In this document: positions 35,226 through 42,536 of the stretch, in pieces | Position numbering within the stretch: the stretch's first letter is position 1 | How the letters are laid out: each line of letters opens with the position of its first letter | Source: Acetobacter oeni | GTDB taxonomy: Bacteria > Pseudomonadota > Alphaproteobacteria > Acetobacterales > Acetobacteraceae | Length of the DNA stretch: 64,000 bases | Assembly: GCF_011516825.1 (NCBI RefSeq) | Contig: NZ_WOTA01000003.1 | Location: forward strand, 124,001-188,000 | Direction of reading: 5' to 3' | Program-made: the position numbers and the translations under genes | The notes under the pieces: model-generated | What the model was told of the DNA's origin: nothing | What the model saw: only the letters and a program-made list of their open reading frames with translations | The model's database searches: none

Positions 35226-36689
35226 GTGGCAGAGATCAGCTTTCAGGACCTCTCACTCCCCTCTGGCGGCGCTCTGGCGCTTCCTGAATTTGCCGAATCG
35301 GAGCGCTCGAATCTTTTCAGGGCAGCCGATGATGCGACCGGGGGCGCCATCAGTCGCGCCGTCGAAGCGGCATCATTTACCTTCAGATCGGGTGCCAGTT
35401 GCACTGTGCTGGCGCCGGGCGCCGGTCTGGAACGCGTCGTTCTTGTCGGTCTTGGCAAAAAAGAAGATTTCACTGAAGTCTCCGCTGAGCGTGCGGGCGG
35501 GGTCGCGGCGATCGCCATGGCGATGCACACTCAGGCCGCCATTTCCACGGACGGCATCGCCAGTGCCCAGGTTCCTCTCGTTGCTTTGGGGGCCAGTCTC
35601 GGTCTCTATCGGTTTGACCGCTACCATACGATCCACAATGACGATCCGCAGAAGCTTATCGGCCTTACAATCCTGACAAGTGCCGCCGATACGGCTCAGC
35701 CTGCCTGGGCCGGTTGGGATGCCGTGGCGCGGGGCGTCACTCTCACCCGCGACCTGGTAACCGAACCTGCCAATATTCTCACGCCCGTCACATTCGCTGA
35801 CCGCACGGAGAAACTCCGCAGCCTGGGACTGACCATCGAAGTGTTCGATCGTCCGGCTATGGAAAAGCTTGGTTTCGGTGCCCTGCTCGGTGTGGCCCAG
35901 GGCAGCAGCAATGAACCCCGTATGGTCGTCATGCGCTGGAACGGGGCTGGGGATGAGTCCGCGCCGCTTGCCTTCATCGGCAAGGGGGTCACCTTCGATT
36001 CCGGAGGTATCTCCATCAAGCCTGCGGCTGGCATGGAAGATATGAAATGGGATATGGGTGGTGCCGGTGTCGTTACCGGTCTGATGTCAACGCTCGCGCG
36101 TCGTCAGGCTAAAGTGAATGTTGTCGGTCTTATCGGTCTTGTCGAAAATATGGTTTCCGGTAATGCCCAGCGCCCCGGCGATGTCGTCCGCAGCGCTTCC
36201 GGTCAGACCATCGAAGTTCTCAATACCGATGCCGAAGGCCGTCTCGTGCTGGCTGATGTTCTTTGGTACGCCCGGGAAATTTTTAAGCCTCGTTTCATGG
36301 TCGATCTTGCCACACTGACAGGTGCTGTCATCGTTGCTCTTGGCCATGAATATGCAGGACTGTTCTCCAATGATGACACACTGGCCGCCAATCTCGATGC
36401 AGCAGGCAGGATCAGTGGTGAAAAACTGTGGCGCATGCCGCTGTCTGACGACTATGATCAGTTTCTGAAATCTGACATCGCCGATATGAAGAATATCGGC
36501 GGACGTCCGGGCGGGTCCATCACTGCAGCACAGTTTCTTCAGCGTTTCGTCGGCGATACGCCGTGGGCGCATCTCGATATCGCCGGTGTCACCTGGGCCT
36601 CGAAGGCAAAGCCTGGTGCGCTGAAGGGCGCCACCGCCTTCGGTGTACGTCTGCTTGATCGCCTTGTTCGTCAGTATGAGGCGAAGTGA
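35226..36689 (+). CDS. pepA: Leucyl aminopeptidase (M17)
   Basis: 487-residue hexameric metallo-aminopeptidase. The start is GTG 35226 (MAEISFQDLSLPSGG); the frame is open 49 codons upstream but codes for Arg/Cys-rich sequence unlike the family. The family signature NTDAEGRLVLADVL is at about residue 334. Metal ligands are seen in IGKGVTFDSGGISIKP. The PepA of E. coli also binds DNA at cer sites; nothing here indicates that. It is followed closely by holC, a common pairing. Confidence 0.93.
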   Translation: MAEISFQDLSLPSGGALALPEFAESERSNLFRAADDATGGAISRAVEAASFTFRSGASCTVLAPGAGLERVVLVGLGKKEDFTEVSAERAGGVAAIAMAMHTQAAISTDGIASAQVPLVALGASLGLYRFDRYHTIHNDDPQKLIGLTILTSAADTAQPAWAGWDAVARGVTLTRDLVTEPANILTPVTFADRTEKLRSLGLTIEVFDRPAMEKLGFGALLGVAQGSSNEPRMVVMRWNGAGDESAPLAFIGKGVTFDSGGISIKPAAGMEDMKWDMGGAGVVTGLMSTLARRQAKVNVVGLIGLVENMVSGNAQRPGDVVRSASGQTIEVLNTDAEGRLVLADVLWYAREIFKPRFMVDLATLTGAVIVALGHEYAGLFSNDDTLAANLDAAGRISGEKLWRMPLSDDYDQFLKSDIADMKNIGGRPGGSITAAQFLQRFVGDTPWAHLDIAGVTWASKAKPGALKGATAFGVRLLDRLVRQYEAK

Positions 36690-36711
36690 GGCAGAACGAG
36701 ACGTTTGGAAG

Positions 36712-37158
36712 ATGGCGGAAATCGGCTTCTATCATCTGACCCGCACCGATGCCCATGAGGCGCTTCCGGTGCTTCTCGGGCGGACGCTCGACAGCGGCAG
36801 GCGCGCCGTTATCCGCTGCGGCAAGAGCGAGGAAGCCGGTGCGCTGGATATTGCGCTCTGGAAAGTCTCTGATCCTGTCTGGCTTCCTCATGCGGCGACC
36901 GGCGGGAAATATCCGGATCGCCAGCCGATCTGGATCACTGCCGGAGAAGATGTGCCTAATGGTGCAACTTTTCTCTTTCTGCTCGGTGCTACAGATACTC
37001 TGACAATCGACCCTTTCGAACGAGTCTTCGATCTTTTCGATGGCCGCGACGAAGTTGCGGTGGCGGCGGCCCGTCGGCGCTGGATGGCGCTCAAAGCGCA
37101 GGGCCATACTCTGGCCTACTGGCGTCAGGAGGCAAAGGGCTGGACCCGTGCCGGTTAA
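36712..37158 (+). CDS. holC: DNA polymerase III chi subunit
   Basis: 148-residue chi subunit of the clamp-loader complex, which links the holoenzyme to SSB. ATG 36712 (MAEIGFYHLTRTDAHEALPV) is used; an ATG at 36676 overlapping the pepA stop adds 12 residues. Family segments are WKVSDPVWLPHAATGG and QPIWITAGEDVPNGATFLFL. The pepA-holC order is widely conserved, which supports the call. Confidence 0.9.
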   Translation: MAEIGFYHLTRTDAHEALPVLLGRTLDSGRRAVIRCGKSEEAGALDIALWKVSDPVWLPHAATGGKYPDRQPIWITAGEDVPNGATFLFLLGATDTLTIDPFERVFDLFDGRDEVAVAAARRRWMALKAQGHTLAYWRQEAKGWTRAG

Positions 37159-37270
37159 CTCCGGATGGGAAATTTACGTGGATGCAGCGGTTCCGTGCCG
37201 GAGGGAATGACCGGGGCGACATCTGTTTTTCGATGCGAGGAGCAATTCAGTCTGCAAGACAGAAGTCCGG

Positions 37271-37399
37271 TCACAGCCGCCCGCTTCCGTTATACGGCCA
37301 TCGCTGCGCCTTTTTCCAGCGATAGAGAAATGCGCCCGGGACGATTAATACGGAGACAGAGACGACAACGCCCTCAAACCATTCGAATATTTTCTTCAT
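37271..37399 (-). CDS. 42-residue single-pass membrane microprotein
   Basis: Read from ATG 37399: MKKIFEWFEGVVVSVSVLIV, then PGAFLYRWKKAQRWPYNGSG, ending RL. One membrane segment (about residues 10-25) is followed by a strongly basic, Trp-containing tail. It lies 28 bases after the 30-residue microprotein gene and is last in the minus-strand cassette. No family is recognised; the layout is like phage holin or lysis accessory peptides. It is too short for ordinary gene callers. Confidence 0.5.
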   Translation of the reverse strand: MKKIFEWFEGVVVSVSVLIVPGAFLYRWKKAQRWPYNGSGRL

Positions 37400-37427
37400 T
37401 TTCTGCCGTTTTCATCACCCGTCCGTA

Positions 37428-37520
37428 TCAGCGGTTCTTCATCCTCAGCATGAGGACGACAAACAGAACTGAGACGGAGAGCGCGATCAGGCAGAATGCA
37501 GGGGCACAGACAGCACTCAT
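37428..37520 (-). CDS. 30-residue single-pass membrane microprotein
   Basis: ATG 37520 overlaps the stop of the glycosyltransferase gene (ATGA). The product is nearly all one hydrophobic helix (about residues 6-24, containing LIALSVSVLFVVLML) closed by RMKNR. The basic end suggests an N-out, C-in orientation. No family is recognised. The translational overlap and clean membrane topology argue that it is real. Confidence 0.5.
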   Translation of the reverse strand: MSAVCAPAFCLIALSVSVLFVVLMLRMKNR

Positions 37521-38515
37521 ACAACATTGGCATCTTCGTCCCTGACAGTGGACAGCCGCCGCAGACCATCTCGCAACTTACGGTTATCTGACACGATGAA
37601 TGGCAACCCGTGGCGGTCGACTCCCAGATCGATGTCCGGGTCGAACTGACTTTCCCGCAGAATGTCCTCGCGCGTGAGATAGTAGCGTTTGCGTTTGGAG
37701 CCGTGGAAGCCGTGCATCAGCATTCCACCCACGACGCCGATATCCTGTTTCACGAACTCATCGCACAGTTCCGCGTAACGCTTCAGCCTGCGTGCCCCGC
37801 CACCGGTTTCCTGAAGCTGAGTGATGGGGATTTTCCCTGCGAACGCCATGGCAGATACGTAATCAGCCTTCCCGCTTACCATCCATGTCGGCAGTCCGCC
37901 GATGTCATTCCAGACATCCAGCCGGTAAGCCCAGGCGTAACCGCAATGCGCTCTCGTGTCTTTCTTCCGGTTCGGATCAAGACCCCAGCCATAAGTCATC
38001 TGGCCGCTGTAGTCCGGTGTCGGAACATTGACATCTCCGGCAAGCCACGCCGCGCAGAAAGAGCGGTCAACCGTCGAGCCCCATTCGTTCGGGACGGGAT
38101 TCTGGTCCGGCCCGAGATCAATGGAATAGGACCATGGCTGGCCGACGCGGTGAACCTGAAGCATATCGAGCGTCGCCAGAGGCCAGTCAGGACGCTGGAA
38201 GAACACATCCGCATCGATCACCGCTATGTATTTCGCATCCTCCGGCAGCATGCGAACGCCGTAAGCGACCAGCCCTTCCTTCATCCAGTTCTCGTGCCGG
38301 GCATCACCGCGCAACTGGAACAGACGCACATGGCGCAGGATCGGATCATCGGGATTGAGAGCGAAGTCACGTTCGCCAATAGTATGCTCAACCAGAGTCA
38401 GGGTGACGCCCGCCTGAAGCATCTGCGGAATATACTCCCGCAGCAGCCGGATACGGGACTGCCATTGGCGATTATTTGAGAACACTGAGACAACGTGAAG
38501 CTGAGAGGCAAGCAT
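37517..38515 (-). CDS. Phage-type glycosyltransferase-like protein
   Basis: 332 residues from ATG 38515 (MLASQLHVVSVFSNNRQWQS), whose A is shared with the stop of the preceding microprotein (TGATG); the frame is open four codons upstream. The nucleotide-sugar pattern includes IAVIDADVFFQRPDW (DxD, about residue 100) and a central GWGLDPNRKKDTRAHCGYAW. A late HGFHGSKRKRYYLTREDIL is typical of glycosyltransferase-like proteins found in phages and rhizobia. Donor and acceptor are unknown. It lies inside a cassette of microproteins. Confidence 0.65.
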   Translation of the reverse strand: MLASQLHVVSVFSNNRQWQSRIRLLREYIPQMLQAGVTLTLVEHTIGERDFALNPDDPILRHVRLFQLRGDARHENWMKEGLVAYGVRMLPEDAKYIAVIDADVFFQRPDWPLATLDMLQVHRVGQPWSYSIDLGPDQNPVPNEWGSTVDRSFCAAWLAGDVNVPTPDYSGQMTYGWGLDPNRKKDTRAHCGYAWAYRLDVWNDIGGLPTWMVSGKADYVSAMAFAGKIPITQLQETGGGARRLKRYAELCDEFVKQDIGVVGGMLMHGFHGSKRKRYYLTREDILRESQFDPDIDLGVDRHGLPFIVSDNRKLRDGLRRLSTVRDEDANVV

Positions 38516-38595
38516 CAGAGATACCAAATCCGGACAGGGACTGAGATGAGCCAGAAAGCGCAGAGCGCCAGGGCGACAATGATCAGCGTAGTCAT
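38515..38595 (-). CDS. 26-residue membrane microprotein
   Basis: ATG 38595 overlaps the stop of the upstream microprotein (ATGA), and AGGTGG lies 8 bases before it. The product MTTLIIVALALCAFWLISVP then VRIWYL is a single hydrophobic helix. Its stop shares one base with the next start (TGATG). The precise stitching on both sides supports translation. Function is unknown. Confidence 0.5.
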   Translation of the reverse strand: MTTLIIVALALCAFWLISVPVRIWYL

Positions 38596-38690
38596 CGTTC
38601 AGCCACCTGTCCCAGAACTGCGGTCAGTGCGCCGAGCGCGCCGCCGATCCAGAGACCGGCCAGGAATGTGGCGAGGTAAGAGAAGGTCAT
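38592..38690 (-). CDS. 32-residue membrane microprotein
   Basis: ATG 38690 shares its A with the lipoprotein stop (TGATG). The product MTFSYLATFLAGLWIGGALG then ALTAVLGQVAER has one membrane segment with a Gly/Ala-rich face (GLWIGGALGAL), suited to helix packing or oligomerisation. It is second in the cassette. No family is recognised. Confidence 0.5.
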   Translation of the reverse strand: MTFSYLATFLAGLWIGGALGALTAVLGQVAER

Positions 38691-39271
38691 CAGACGCCGT
38701 GCCGACTGCGAATTGCGGCGATCTCGGCTGCACGCCACTGAGGCGAACCCGGGGCAGCACCAGCAGAACGAGGCGCCAGAAAGGCCGCTGTGACGGTTGA
38801 GACCGCGCTGGAGATGACAGCGGCAACCGATGCGACATCGGACGCAACAGCCGAAATTTCTGACGTAAGCGTGCCGCCGAGTGTGGATGCTTCAGACTGA
38901 ACGACCGCCGCCAGTTCAGTGGAACCGGTGTTGAGCGCCGTGAGAACGCTGGTGACGACTGCCGGGGCGCTGCCCTTCGTGAAGGTGATGGTCGAGCTTC
39001 CGGACGAATAAGCGTTCCATGCAGTCAGTGCGGTCTCGACAGCGGAAATCACTTCGTCTGCCACAGTAACGACGGCAGCCGGAACTCCGGTAAACGCCAG
39101 CACAGTTTTGACGATATTCAGTGCTGCCGTGGTGTCCGACGTGATTTCTGACACATTGATAGTAATCGTCGTCGTGTCGCCGGAGGTGGCGGTCGTGCAG
39201 GCTGTAAGTCCGAGAGCTGCGCCACCCAGAGCAGTGTTGAGCAGGAAATTGCGGCGGGAGAGGTTGGTCAT
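38690..39271 (-). CDS. Putative Tat-exported lipoprotein
   Basis: 193 residues. The N-terminus has a twin-arginine motif (SRRNFLLNTALGG) and a lipobox (LTAC, Cys25), so Tat export followed by lipidation is predicted. The mature part is Ala/Val/Ser/Thr-rich with amphipathic helical repeats (residues 40-165) and no recognised domain. The end is Arg-rich (WRAAEIAAIRSRHGV). It is the first gene of the microprotein/glycosyltransferase cassette and is joined to the next by TGATG. Confidence 0.65.
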   Translation of the reverse strand: MTNLSRRNFLLNTALGGAALGLTACTTATSGDTTTITINVSEITSDTTAALNIVKTVLAFTGVPAAVVTVADEVISAVETALTAWNAYSSGSSTITFTKGSAPAVVTSVLTALNTGSTELAAVVQSEASTLGGTLTSEISAVASDVASVAAVISSAVSTVTAAFLAPRSAGAAPGSPQWRAAEIAAIRSRHGV

Positions 39272-39719
39272 GGTATTTTCCCATAAATAAAGTCACCCGG
39301 CGTGGGCGGTTGCGTGAGGGTAACTGTCTCGGCCCGCGGCTATCGGATCTATGGAGATAATGAGGGTTTGATCCGGTCAGGAAGCCGGCTCCTGTATCAG
39401 CACAACAGCGTCGACAGACCTCTTTATATGCTCGCCGGCTTGTTACAGTTTTGCGAAAATGCCGGCGGGCCACGAAGTGGCGGCTCAGCATCCGATATCA
39501 ACGGTCATCGAAGTGTTTGGCCGGGGAATATGGGTATATCTCTGACAGGGTAGTATATCAGGGTGCATGGAGATGGATTTTTGTGTCCGTTCAAAAAAGC
39601 TGCCCGGGTGGCCAGCGTTGTGACCGGGGATGGTAAAGGGGATGGTAAAATCGAATCAAAAGATTAAAACGGCTATCATTGGGGTAATATTTTCTTTTGA
39701 ATGAAAAGGATTTCGTTCC
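39272..39719. other. Gene-free region between the cassette and the IS nest
   Basis: About 450 bases with no supported gene. It should contain the promoter of the minus-strand cassette, but I see no clear -35/-10 there. It holds an exact 12-base tandem duplication at 39626-39649. Confidence 0.5.
39626..39649. repeat. Exact 12-base tandem duplication
   Basis: GGGGATGGTAAA occurs twice head to tail, about 70 bases from the left IS end. Its meaning is unknown. Confidence 0.85.
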
Positions 39720-39731
39720 TAGGGCGTGTCG

Positions 39732-40150
39732 TTATTTAATACCGCTGATTGCGGAGACGAGTTGCACGGCAGCGAGGCATGTTGACTTTAGTTTTTCGTG
39801 GCGTGTTGCAATACCTCTGAACTGCTTCAGTCCGGCAAAGAAGCGTTCGGTGATGTTTCTGTTTTTATAAAGCAGGAAGCTGGTCTTCCGGGGATTTCTA
39901 CGGTTTCTTTTTGATGGAATGACCGGTGTGATCTCCCGCTCTTCGAGCTTATCGATCAGGGGATCGGCATCATAAGCCTTGTCAGCGATGAAGGCTTTGG
40001 GATCGACTTCATGCAGTAAAGGTCCTGCTTCAGTGATGTCCGCTCTTTGTCCGGGTGTCAGGGAAAGGACCACAGCCTTCCCGGCAGCATCGACAACGGC
40101 GTGCATTTTCTTGGTCAGTCCCCCACGGGATCGTCCGATGGCCTGGTAAT
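39732..40150 (-). pseudogene. IS5-family transposase, C-terminal remnant (left copy)
   Basis: The open C-terminal part of a DDE transposase, about 140 residues: AIGRSRGGLTKKMHAVVDAA, LTPGQRADITEAGPLL, FIADKAYDADPLIDKLEE, and a C-terminal ITERFFAGLKQFRGIATRHE. The N-terminal half is missing: the frame meets the IS3 end (C-rich run at 40151-40158). The remnant cannot transpose by itself. Confidence 0.85.
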
Positions 40151-40185
40151 CCCCCCCCATTAAAAATGGGGTGCATCCGTAGAAT

Positions 40186-40990
40186 TCACACGGCGAGTTT
40201 CAGTTTTTGAGCGGGTGTGATCCCGCCGGTCCCCACGTTCGGTCGTTCGTTGTTGTATGTCCATAGCCATTGCGTGGCGTAATCCTGTGCTTCCCCTATG
40301 CTGCCAATGATATTCTGGTCCGGCCATTCGTGCCGGGCGGTCCTGTTATAGCGTTCGACATAGGCGTTTTGCTGCGGCTTACCGGGCTGGATGTGGCAGA
40401 TACTGATCTGGAGTTTTTCAGCCTAGGTCGACAGCTTTCCGCTGCTATACTCAGGTCCGTTGTCAATGCGGATGCAGACTGGCTTGGCGCGCCATTCAAT
40501 GATCCTGTTCAGGCTACGGATCACCCTCTCGGCCGGCCGCGAGAAGTCACCTCGATAGCTAGGCCTTCACGGTTAAAATCATCCAGCACATTCAGCAGAC
40601 GGAACACCGGGCCATCCTCCAGACGATCCGCCATAAAGTCCATCGACCACACGATATTCGGTGCCTCAGGCACAGCCAGGGCGTCTCAGGCTTATCTCGC
40701 GTTTACGCGGCTTGATCCGCAGGTTCAGCTCCAACTCCCGGTAAATCCGGTAGACCCACCCGCTTATGGTTCCACCGGTAACCCTTAACATTGCGCAAAT
40801 ACAAAAAACACAGGCTAAAACCCCAATTCCGCCGCGCCTGCGTCACCCCCAGGAGCAACTCAGCAATCTGCTCGTTCTCACTCTTCAGCAGGGGAGCATA
40901 GCGATAACATGTCTCGCTCACCCCAAACGTCCGGTAGGCCAGCGCAATGCTGACACTTCGCCTCGCTACGGCCAACGCGGCCATTTCCCG
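40186..40990 (-). pseudogene. IS3-family transposase OrfB, frameshifted
   Basis: Fragments in several frames join into an rve-type integrase core: ARRSVSIALAYRTFGVSETC and YRIYRELELNLRIKPRKR, then [20 protein letters not shown] (first Asp), VCIRIDNGPEYSSGKL (second Asp), QQNAYVERYNRTARHEWPDQ (Glu), and a terminal TPAQKLKLAV. At least three frameshifts and an in-frame TAG (after the GKLST stretch) inactivate it. The catalytic triad itself is still readable. Confidence 0.85.
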
Positions 40991-41273
40991 GCGCTGAGAT
41001 GGCCGCGTTATTTTCCCCCCAAAGCCTCTCCCTGAGCAACTCGTTCTGCAGGCTCAACTCGGCAAACATCTTCTTCAAACGGCAGTTCTCGTCTTCCAGG
41101 GCCTTCATCGACGAGATCATCAACGTATCCATGCCACCGTATTTGGCCCGCCATTTGTAAAATGAGGCGTTGCTCATGCCATGCTCACGGCAAAGCTCCG
41201 CTATAGGCATACCGCCCTCTGCCTGGCGAAGGATCGCCAAAATCCGGGTCTCGCTATAGCGAGACTGTTTCAT
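40878..41273 (-). CDS. IS3-family transposase OrfA
   Basis: From ATG 41273 the product begins MKQSRYSETRILAILRQAEG, with the helix-turn-helix CREHGMSNASFYKWRAKYGG and the leucine-zipper-like ALEDENCRLKKMFAELSLQN. The family OrfA normally ends near residue 90. Here the frame runs on to 131 residues through sequence that belongs to orfB in another frame, after a GGGGGGAAAAT stretch that could be a slip site or a mutation. orfB is dead, so the element is presumably inactive. Confidence 0.8.
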   Translation of the reverse strand: MKQSRYSETRILAILRQAEGGMPIAELCREHGMSNASFYKWRAKYGGMDTLMISSMKALEDENCRLKKMFAELSLQNELLRERLWGENNAAISAPGNGRVGRSEAKCQHCAGLPDVWGERDMLSLCSPAEE

Positions 41274-41349
41274 CAAAATGTCCTCATGCAAAATGCCGAG
41301 AAAATTCTACTTATCAATCCCCTTAATCGCAGGGGGGATTACCGCCCGA

Positions 41350-41626
41350 TGAAGTCGATCCCGGAGTCTTCATCGCTGCTAAGGCCTGTGATACCAATCC
41401 ACTCATCGAACAGCTCGAAGAACAACAGACCATATCGGTCATTCTATCAAGGAAAAACCGTCGCACTACACGGAAAATTAGCTTCCCGCTTTATAGAGAG
41501 AAACGAGATCAGATGCTTCTTTGCCAGACTGAAGCAGTTAGGAGTATTACAACACGTTATAACAAGCTGAAATCAATCTTCCTCGCAGCAGTTCAGCTTG
41601 TGTCCGCAATTATCGGACTTAACTGA
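41350..41626 (+). pseudogene. IS5-family transposase, C-terminal remnant (right copy)
   Basis: Similar to the left copy but on the opposite strand and diverged: EVDPGVFIAAKACDTNPLIE, then after a frameshift TRYNKLKSIFLAAVQLVSAI, ending GLN. It begins at the IS3 end without its N-terminal part. Its tail overlaps the flhG stop on the other strand. Confidence 0.8.
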
Positions 41627-42536
41627 CGACATACCCAGAACGATCTTCAGACATACGTCGTGCAATCCGTGTCACGTCAATCCCAGCCATTGACCCTGAA
41701 TTATGGCCAAGAAAAGGACGTTGCAGACGAATCGTTTCTGAAACACGTCGATCACGCCTCACGACACCAGCAAACTTAGGCACCTGTTTGAGAAAGCGAC
41801 TACATGCTTCGGCAAGAACAGCATAAACTGCTTCTCCCGACCGGAGGCCGGTCGCCTGATTCACGACAATTTCTGCATTTGTCATGGAGAAACCGTCTGT
41901 TTGTCTGTCTTTGATCGATAATTTCAGGACCGCATACGCATCGGTCAATGCTGTTGGCTCTTCTGTCGTCACCAGAAGAAGCCTGTCTGCCGCAGCTGCA
42001 ATTGCCCTGGAACTCCAGTCTATCCCGGCACAGAGATCAATGAGAATAATATCGTAAGCAGACAGCATCCGAAGCTGTTCGAGAAGATCATGTACATTAT
42101 CCGGTTTCAGGAAACTCAACGTCGAAGCCCCGGAGTGGCCCGGAAGAATATCAAGCTGAAGCCGGGTGGCCGGCCTGTTTGGATCTGTCAGAAAATATGG
42201 TGTAACGGCCCTGGGAATCGAAATCTGTTGCTTTAGTATGTGTGTTATATCGAACTTGTGGTGCAGACCCAACTGGATATCCACATTTCCCAAACCAAAA
42301 TCTCCATCGACAACGAGTATCCTTCTGTCAGGGTTTTCGCGGAGAAGAGCATGCGCGAGCGTGAGAGAAAACCATGTTTTGCCAACTCCACCTTTCCCGG
42401 AGGCTACTGCAATAATGCGCGGCGTGGACTTCAGATCGGCAATTTTTGTTTTCTGGGAAAATAACGGCCTGACAGCTTTGCTGTAAGGACGAGGCTGAGA
42501 GGTAAACACAGTCTCTGACATTTCGTCGTTCCTCAC
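41619..42536 (-). CDS. flhG: Flagellar number regulator FlhG (MinD/ParA-type ATPase)
   Basis: 305-residue P-loop ATPase that with FlhF sets flagellar number and placement. The deviant Walker A is VASGKGGVGKTWFSLTLAHA, with ILVVDGDFGLGNVDIQLGLH and IILIDLCAGIDWSSRAI as the other nucleotide motifs. It overlaps flhF by 4 bases. The last five residues (GYVVS) and the stop are encoded by the end of the IS5 remnant, so the natural C-terminus has been replaced; the loss is probably small. Confidence 0.87.
   Translation of the reverse strand: MRNDEMSETVFTSQPRPYSKAVRPLFSQKTKIADLKSTPRIIAVASGKGGVGKTWFSLTLAHALLRENPDRRILVVDGDFGLGNVDIQLGLHHKFDITHILKQQISIPRAVTPYFLTDPNRPATRLQLDILPGHSGASTLSFLKPDNVHDLLEQLRMLSAYDIILIDLCAGIDWSSRAIAAAADRLLLVTTEEPTALTDAYAVLKLSIKDRQTDGFSMTNAEIVVNQATGLRSGEAVYAVLAEACSRFLKQVPKFAGVVRRDRRVSETIRLQRPFLGHNSGSMAGIDVTRIARRMSEDRSGYVVS

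Follow-up and report, generated by a model that had tools for sequence, protein, structure and literature searches.

Overlapping lipoprotein, microprotein and glycosyltransferase genes with phage relatives in Acetobacter oeni

Serotype-conversion clusters of the gtrABC type carry a phage-borne glycosyltransferase near small membrane genes. This is one of several described systems that resemble parts of the locus reported here, a cassette in a 64,000-nucleotide (nt) stretch of the acetic-acid-type bacterium Acetobacter oeni (hereafter the window). The cassette consists of six consecutive minus-strand frames at 37271-39271, overlapping or closely packed, which encode a lipoprotein (lip), four microproteins (m1 to m4) and a glycosyltransferase (GT) (Table 1). 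A canonical gtrABC cluster was rejected, with no GtrA or Gtr match in Pfam among the six proteins. In two-component spanins, such as Rz/Rz1 and Mu gp23/gp23.1 (PMC9239132), a lipoprotein and an inner-membrane partner are likewise encoded by overlapping genes near the endolysin, but here the partner is a helix of 26-53 amino acids with scant periplasmic room, and lip has about 190 amino acids and a signal of the twin-arginine translocation (Tat) type. The same source describes Mu gp25 releasin (DUF2730) as a small late membrane protein predicted to lie N-out, C-in; unlike m1 to m4, which have no DUF2730 match in Pfam, gp25 has a cytoplasmic domain.

Another likeness is at the late end of three Komagataeibacter phages, phiKM1, phiKX1 and phiKX2, from a study of mitomycin-C-inducible phages in acetic acid bacteria (PMC8566455). 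In each, a member of the same lip family is followed by one single-helix microprotein with a 4-nt overlap; unlike the window, none has a gene for this GT at that place. By the PHAST calls of the study's authors, phiKM1 is active, phiKX2 questionable and phiKX1 incomplete, and the main text of the article uses none of the words lipoprotein, holin, endolysin, lysozyme or glycosyltransferase. The phage records (LC644974-LC644976) give the name “hypothetical protein” to each lipoprotein and to both of the microproteins that they annotate; the microprotein of phiKM1 is unannotated. No description of the lip-microprotein pair was found among the titles and abstracts of the literature searched.

We read the cassette as a stranded late-region piece of a tailed temperate phage, with an envelope pair and a glycosylation cargo, at a probability of roughly 55%. 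Its core would be a Tat-exported, outer-membrane lip whose translation is coupled to that of single-helix microproteins in the inner membrane; in relatives, lip usually sits shortly behind holin-like and endolysin-type genes. GT would be cargo that entered after lip, at the seam of stop and start. The pair may act on the envelope in the late phase of the phage, and GT may alter the host surface glycan in lysogeny, through lysogenic conversion or superinfection exclusion. The window fragment, lacking lysis partners and placed beside transposase remnants, may either remain useful to its host or be in decay.

Table 1. Features of the cassette and its surroundings (positions in the window)
Feature	Position	Strand	Description
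lip, lipoprotein	38690-39271	-	193 amino acids; Tat-type signal SRRNFLL, lipobox LTAC
m1 microprotein	38592-38690	-	32 amino acids, single helix; joined to lip via TGATG
m2 microprotein	38515-38595	-	26 amino acids, single helix, C-terminal RIWYL; ATGA join with m1, TGATG join with GT
GT, GT-A-fold glycosyltransferase	37517-38515	-	332 amino acids; DAD motif at residues 101-103
m3 microprotein	37428-37520	-	30 amino acids, single helix; joined to GT via ATGA
m4 microprotein	37271-37399	-	42 amino acids, single helix; start 28 nt past the m3 end
Terminator-like hairpin and interrupted T-run	39294-39308	-	20 nt upstream of the start of lip; resembles, in degenerate form, a leader present at other lip loci
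holC (DNA polymerase III chi)	36643-37158	+	chromosomal neighbour, faces the cassette
Insertion-sequence remnants	39732-41273	-	pieces of transposases (DDE_Tnp_1, HTH_Tnp_1) on the upstream side of the cassette

The anatomy is as an earlier note on this DNA had described it. Four start/stop joins (TGATG at 38690, ATGA at 38592-38595, TGATG at 38515 and ATGA at 37517-37520) connect lip, m1, m2, GT and m3, with m4 left unjoined by its 28-nt gap. Each microprotein has one hydrophobic helix on the Kyte-Doolittle (KD) scale, with a maximal 18-residue mean of 1.92 in m1, 2.71 in m2, 2.91 in m3 and 2.07 in m4. The note had also held that these are no chance frames, and the control within the window agrees. 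Among 40 non-overlapping open reading frames (ORFs) of at least 200 amino acids, each inspected at either end for a neighbour of 20-70 amino acids with KD of at least 1.9, GT is flanked by small hydrophobic ORFs on both sides, against 0/39 for the other long ORFs on either side. At 25 other loci, a small hydrophobic neighbour is found in 11/191 cases downstream and 3/191 upstream, with lip and GT genes left in. Chance is ruled out for the microproteins as a whole class by the window control and the lip-overlap counts that follow. Current family libraries recognise almost nothing of the cassette, and Pfam returns just weak TAT and leader-peptide rows for the six proteins.

The overlap between lip and a microprotein was counted at 42 lip loci. 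Loci sharing a 200-nt stretch at more than 90% identity with one already retained had been dropped beforehand, along with short matches and loci too close to a contig end. Microproteins were ORFs of 20-70 amino acids with KD of at least 1.7, and strict overlaps those covering the lip stop by 4 or 1 nt. A strict overlap is present at 19/42 loci, with single-helix products of 26-53 amino acids, and 21/42 have a microprotein at -8 to +14 nt relative to the lip stop. The controls, 236 other ORFs of at least 150 amino acids taken from these loci plus the window, have 8 strict overlaps and 11 near ones (Fisher p = 4e-12 for lip loci versus controls, with related loci not independent). Joined microproteins are thus a recurrent phage architecture. 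A previous count at KD 1.9 had given 12/38 lip loci; the later one lowers KD to 1.7, covers more loci and demands strict overlaps, with controls treated alike.

The 19 overlapping microproteins belong to several sequence types, including those ending in WYL or WHL, a 33-amino-acid type ending in ASNSR, a type of 47-53 amino acids, and others. In a family of 10 microproteins of 33 amino acids, the mean proportion of nonsynonymous differences (pN) is 0.14 and that of synonymous differences (pS) 0.29. Most of the 19 share one layout by eye, a helix followed by a short basic tail. Since a basic tail places the C-terminus in the cytoplasm under the positive-inside rule, these microproteins would have cytoplasmic C-termini.

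As for lip, the Tat signal scores 17.4 bits with TIGR01409, above the cut-off of 16.7, and 13.5 with Pfam TAT_signal, under its cut-off of 22.7; apart from this signal there is no family match. Across 12 sequences of the family, R7 and the lipobox cysteine C25 are invariant and R6 is conserved in at least 90%. C25 is likewise invariant in a set of 18, and the family shares a “GVTTITLNV”-like core. The lipobox pattern was found at 35/42 loci, with T, S or A at +2 in those 35. Judged by its sequence, lip is predicted to be Tat-exported and retained in the outer membrane.

Relatives of lip are present in 46/397 Acetobacteraceae genomes and 14/102 genera (E of at most 0.001, the weakest matches being partial), and in 21 viral contigs. 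A protein-database search returned one relative apart from lip itself. The window lip as query matched no record among named phages, and a divergent lip matched phiKM1, phiKX1 and phiKX2. These findings point to a widespread unnamed family of phage lipoproteins, whose accompanying microproteins, 26-53 residues long, can be missed in annotation, as in phiKM1.

The position of lip was recorded at 32 loci with 2.5 kb upstream, counting same-strand genes no further than 3 kb away and using queries drawn from these loci themselves. A holin-like gene lies upstream at 28/32, an endolysin-type gene at 21/32, both at 20/32 and either at 29/32 (the labels being partly unsupported). Known families support 10/21 of the endolysin-type calls. 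These are the SleB type (4/21; PF07486, PHROG lysis), the GH108 type (1/21; PF05838, PHROG lysis) and the type of locus L145 (5/21), which matches phrog_873, named “endolysin” and filed under head and packaging, and the PDB endolysin 7q47 (E 4e-14).

With this position, and with overlapping genes for a lipoprotein and a membrane partner that occur in induced phages, the pair could be spanin-like. Lip in the outer membrane and the microprotein in the inner membrane would then disrupt the outer membrane in place of Rz/Rz1, with GT as a passenger. We consider this unlikely. An i-spanin has a periplasmic domain, whereas the overlapping microproteins are about one helix long, most with a basic C-terminus, and leave hardly any periplasmic segment; half of the lip loci (21/42) have no microprotein nearby. 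Several of these phages also encode, further downstream, other proteins whose starts look lipobox-like by eye and which could be the real o-spanins. Furthermore, the uncertain lip model suggests separate helices of 19-31 residues each, not a single long rod. The lysis or envelope module proposed in the earlier note holds in part: joined membrane genes do follow lip, often near endolysin-type or holin-like genes, but the window itself has neither.

Behind the lip region of several lip prophages there is also a protein of 250-270 amino acids (L124:9575-10330 and similar ones). It belongs to phrog_19005, a family of unknown function, and we take it to resemble papain-like proteases.

The relation of GT to lip is seen when prophage locus L056 (genome G338) is aligned with phiKX2. 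Lip matches at 79.7% over 567 columns and the gene of a 47-amino-acid microprotein at 93.8% over 144 bases. These two blocks abut in phiKX2, and in L056 they are separated by 1,068 bp with GT, which itself overlaps the start of the microprotein gene. The overlap is therefore a seam where one gene was gained or lost precisely. GT is present in L056 and absent at the same site in phiKX2, which is the pattern of a moron, and cassettes can evidently gain or lose a gene with translational coupling unbroken. This seam, together with the relatives of lip and GT in phages and viral contigs, supports a phage origin for the parts of the cassette, one of the options in the earlier note.

Other genes occupy the region behind lip elsewhere. 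At L135 it is a GT4-type glycosyltransferase with a 1-nt overlap, and in the inducible phiKM1 (L169:6015-7194) a RelA/SpoT-type synthetase gene with an adjacent HicAB pair. Given this variety across L056, L135 and phiKM1, the region looks like a cargo site.

We tentatively suggest, as an idea more apt to fail than to hold, that lip and its overlapping microprotein form a new two-membrane device for lysis or exclusion, whose overlapping starts and stops act as seams where cargo is inserted with gene precision. Such a device, in Acetobacteraceae phages, would pair a folded, Tat-exported outer-membrane lipoprotein with an inner-membrane partner barely extending beyond one helix with a basic tail; we hold this composition to be equally tentative. 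As phiKM1, phiKX1 and phiKX2 are sequenced and were induced, they make the role of tiny overlapping late membrane genes directly testable.

In the case of GT, the identity given in the earlier note is supported by the predicted structure. The model reaches a predicted local distance difference test score (pLDDT) of 89.2 and has a GT-A fold, and D101 and D103 of the DxD motif are invariant among 31 aligned sequences; Pfam and NCBIfam give no family match. K4 chondroitin polymerase, TarP and GalNAc-T, of the GT-A (GT2-like) kind, share the predicted fold and the DxD, at 8-16% identity among the matches listed. From the model, GT is probably a soluble GT-A-fold enzyme that would transfer sugar.

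A protein search returned 55 GT proteins, including the window's own, with the six nearest 59-68% identical. Alignment-based scans found further relatives in viral and genome contigs, where single-sequence scans had found none. GT relatives occur in 29 viral contigs, in the 349-kb Xanthomonas phage XaC1, amid mostly hypothetical genes, and, with an identity of about 26%, in 4 plasmids. In the two plasmids examined, the gene has neither a lip relative nor a lysis-type one nearby. Counting the window's own, GT is present in 4/61 related genomes and, at 1e-50, in 4/299 genomes of the family.

A second GT type, 37% identical, occurs on the chromosome in several species of the genus (L012 in G000:C2, L013, L014, L120, L121 and L122), and as a query it matches 8/49 genomes of the genus, the window's own included. 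The window's genome also has a solitary GT of this type. None of the six chromosomal loci checked has lip or lysis-type genes beside it. Solitary relatives that share 79-82% identity with a prophage GT have ratios of nonsynonymous to synonymous substitution (dN/dS) of 0.02-0.06 within two groups of three, with synonymous sites near saturation in one of the groups. Their solitary state in chromosomes at such ratios suggests that the second-type GT is in use on the host side. A role of GT on host glycans in lysogeny would explain why solitary chromosomal relatives are under strong purifying selection.

These solitary genes also bear on the possibility that GT decorates a tail fibre or another phage component instead of the host surface. 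Such a role would suit L056, where GT is located behind baseplate and tail-fibre genes, the relative in XaC1, and the template modelling score (TM-score) of 0.81 by query length between the GT model and two viral protein models. It is highly improbable in our judgement, as the chromosomal relatives are conserved where there is no virion.

The microproteins of the window differ in their conservation. Relatives of m2 were found in G015:C20 (73%; also in viral contig L124, from the same prophage) and in G355 (62%, two copies). They directly precede a second-type GT, which is 37% (G015) or 31% (G355) identical to the window GT, and the joins are retained; in G355, m2 is also directly behind lip and overlaps it. 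An m2 pattern matched the window's own genome alone over 397 family genomes, a listing outside which G015 and G355 fall, and had one match over viral contigs, where its sequence is that of L015. A similar arrangement is seen at L027, with a 30-amino-acid microprotein (TTG start, SSWYL end) between lip and GT at gaps of 2 and 1 nt. For m1, m3 and m4, no relative was found in the loci compared; the position of m1 is occupied in L015/L124 and L016 by a 27-amino-acid microprotein of unlike sequence.

By the Nei-Gojobori method, dN/dS of m2, a check that the earlier note called for, is 0.32 between the window and G015 (7 synonymous and 8 nonsynonymous changes) and 0.26 between G015 and G355, with the third pair saturated. 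Window and L124 are 85.7% identical at the nucleotide level over 112 bp spanning m2 and the first GT codons, and part of the m2 conservation may therefore be recent mosaic exchange. The single system of conserved order that the note envisaged is retained for m2 before GT in G015 and G355 and for the lip overlap at 19/42 loci, but not for m3 and m4 in the loci compared, or for most GT relatives. We rejected the six genes as one conserved unit on the same grounds. This mixed conservation indicates modular assembly.

Several observations weigh against a stranded late-region piece with an envelope pair and cargo. The remaining 21/42 lip loci have no microprotein at -8 to +14 nt. Of 40 GT relatives, 3 have an adjoining microprotein downstream and 5 upstream, most having none, and m3 and m4 could be of recent origin or lack a function. 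The largest endolysin-type group (11/21 calls) is that of phrog_3108, a family without known function, whose protein has no sequence match in PDB. “Holin-like” is our own label from size, helices and position, and the holin-like proteins scanned matched no named family. The structural search advised in the note placed GT and left lip unmatched: the lip model has a pLDDT of 61 and no PDB match at E of at most 0.001 in the 395 rows listed to E 10. For GT, Foldseek TM-scores against the top PDB rows are 0.31-0.44 by query length, so the fold assignment spans the core and not the whole protein. Lastly, there is no endolysin, holin, integrase or other recognised phage gene beside the window cassette, and no tRNA in the window.

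The site itself is chromosomal on one side, with pepA and holC. On the other side are the transposase remnants, whose two kinds of pieces are perhaps one element inside another, followed by ParA-type, SRP54-type and FHIPEP (FlhA family) proteins. We compared holC in seven relatives by eye: an aldo/keto reductase follows it in G015, G356, G025, G034 and G018, the next proteins are flagellar in G360, and G020 is unclear. A freshly stranded and inert prophage fragment, its frames open for lack of time to decay, would fit the transposase remnants, the missing phage partners, the different gene directly after holC in 5/7 relatives, the degenerate leader hairpin and the lack of relatives for m3 and m4. 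We nevertheless regard mere debris as improbable, with all six frames and four joins intact and a GT that is full length, keeps 59-68% identity to its six nearest relatives and models well.

The leader was compared across loci. Terminator-like sites in 37000-39800 number 2 against 2.1 expected, so the window hairpin alone is not significant. At 16/42 loci, two of which (L088, L089) look weak, the start of lip is preceded at a distance of 12-32 nt by a hairpin with a T-run, against 20/187 control ORFs, which were tested generously with several starts each; a looser previous count was 20/52. Lip leaders with such a hairpin include those of L009, L063, L114 and L168. From this recurrence, lip may need transcriptional read-through. 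Promoter-like sites number 2 against 1.4 expected, and there is no Rfam match within 36000-42000.

Finally, the window's genome has two more lip copies (L114 and L115, in G000:C63 and C72), one complete and one cut, at the ends of short contigs, hinting at further prophage material in unassembled regions.
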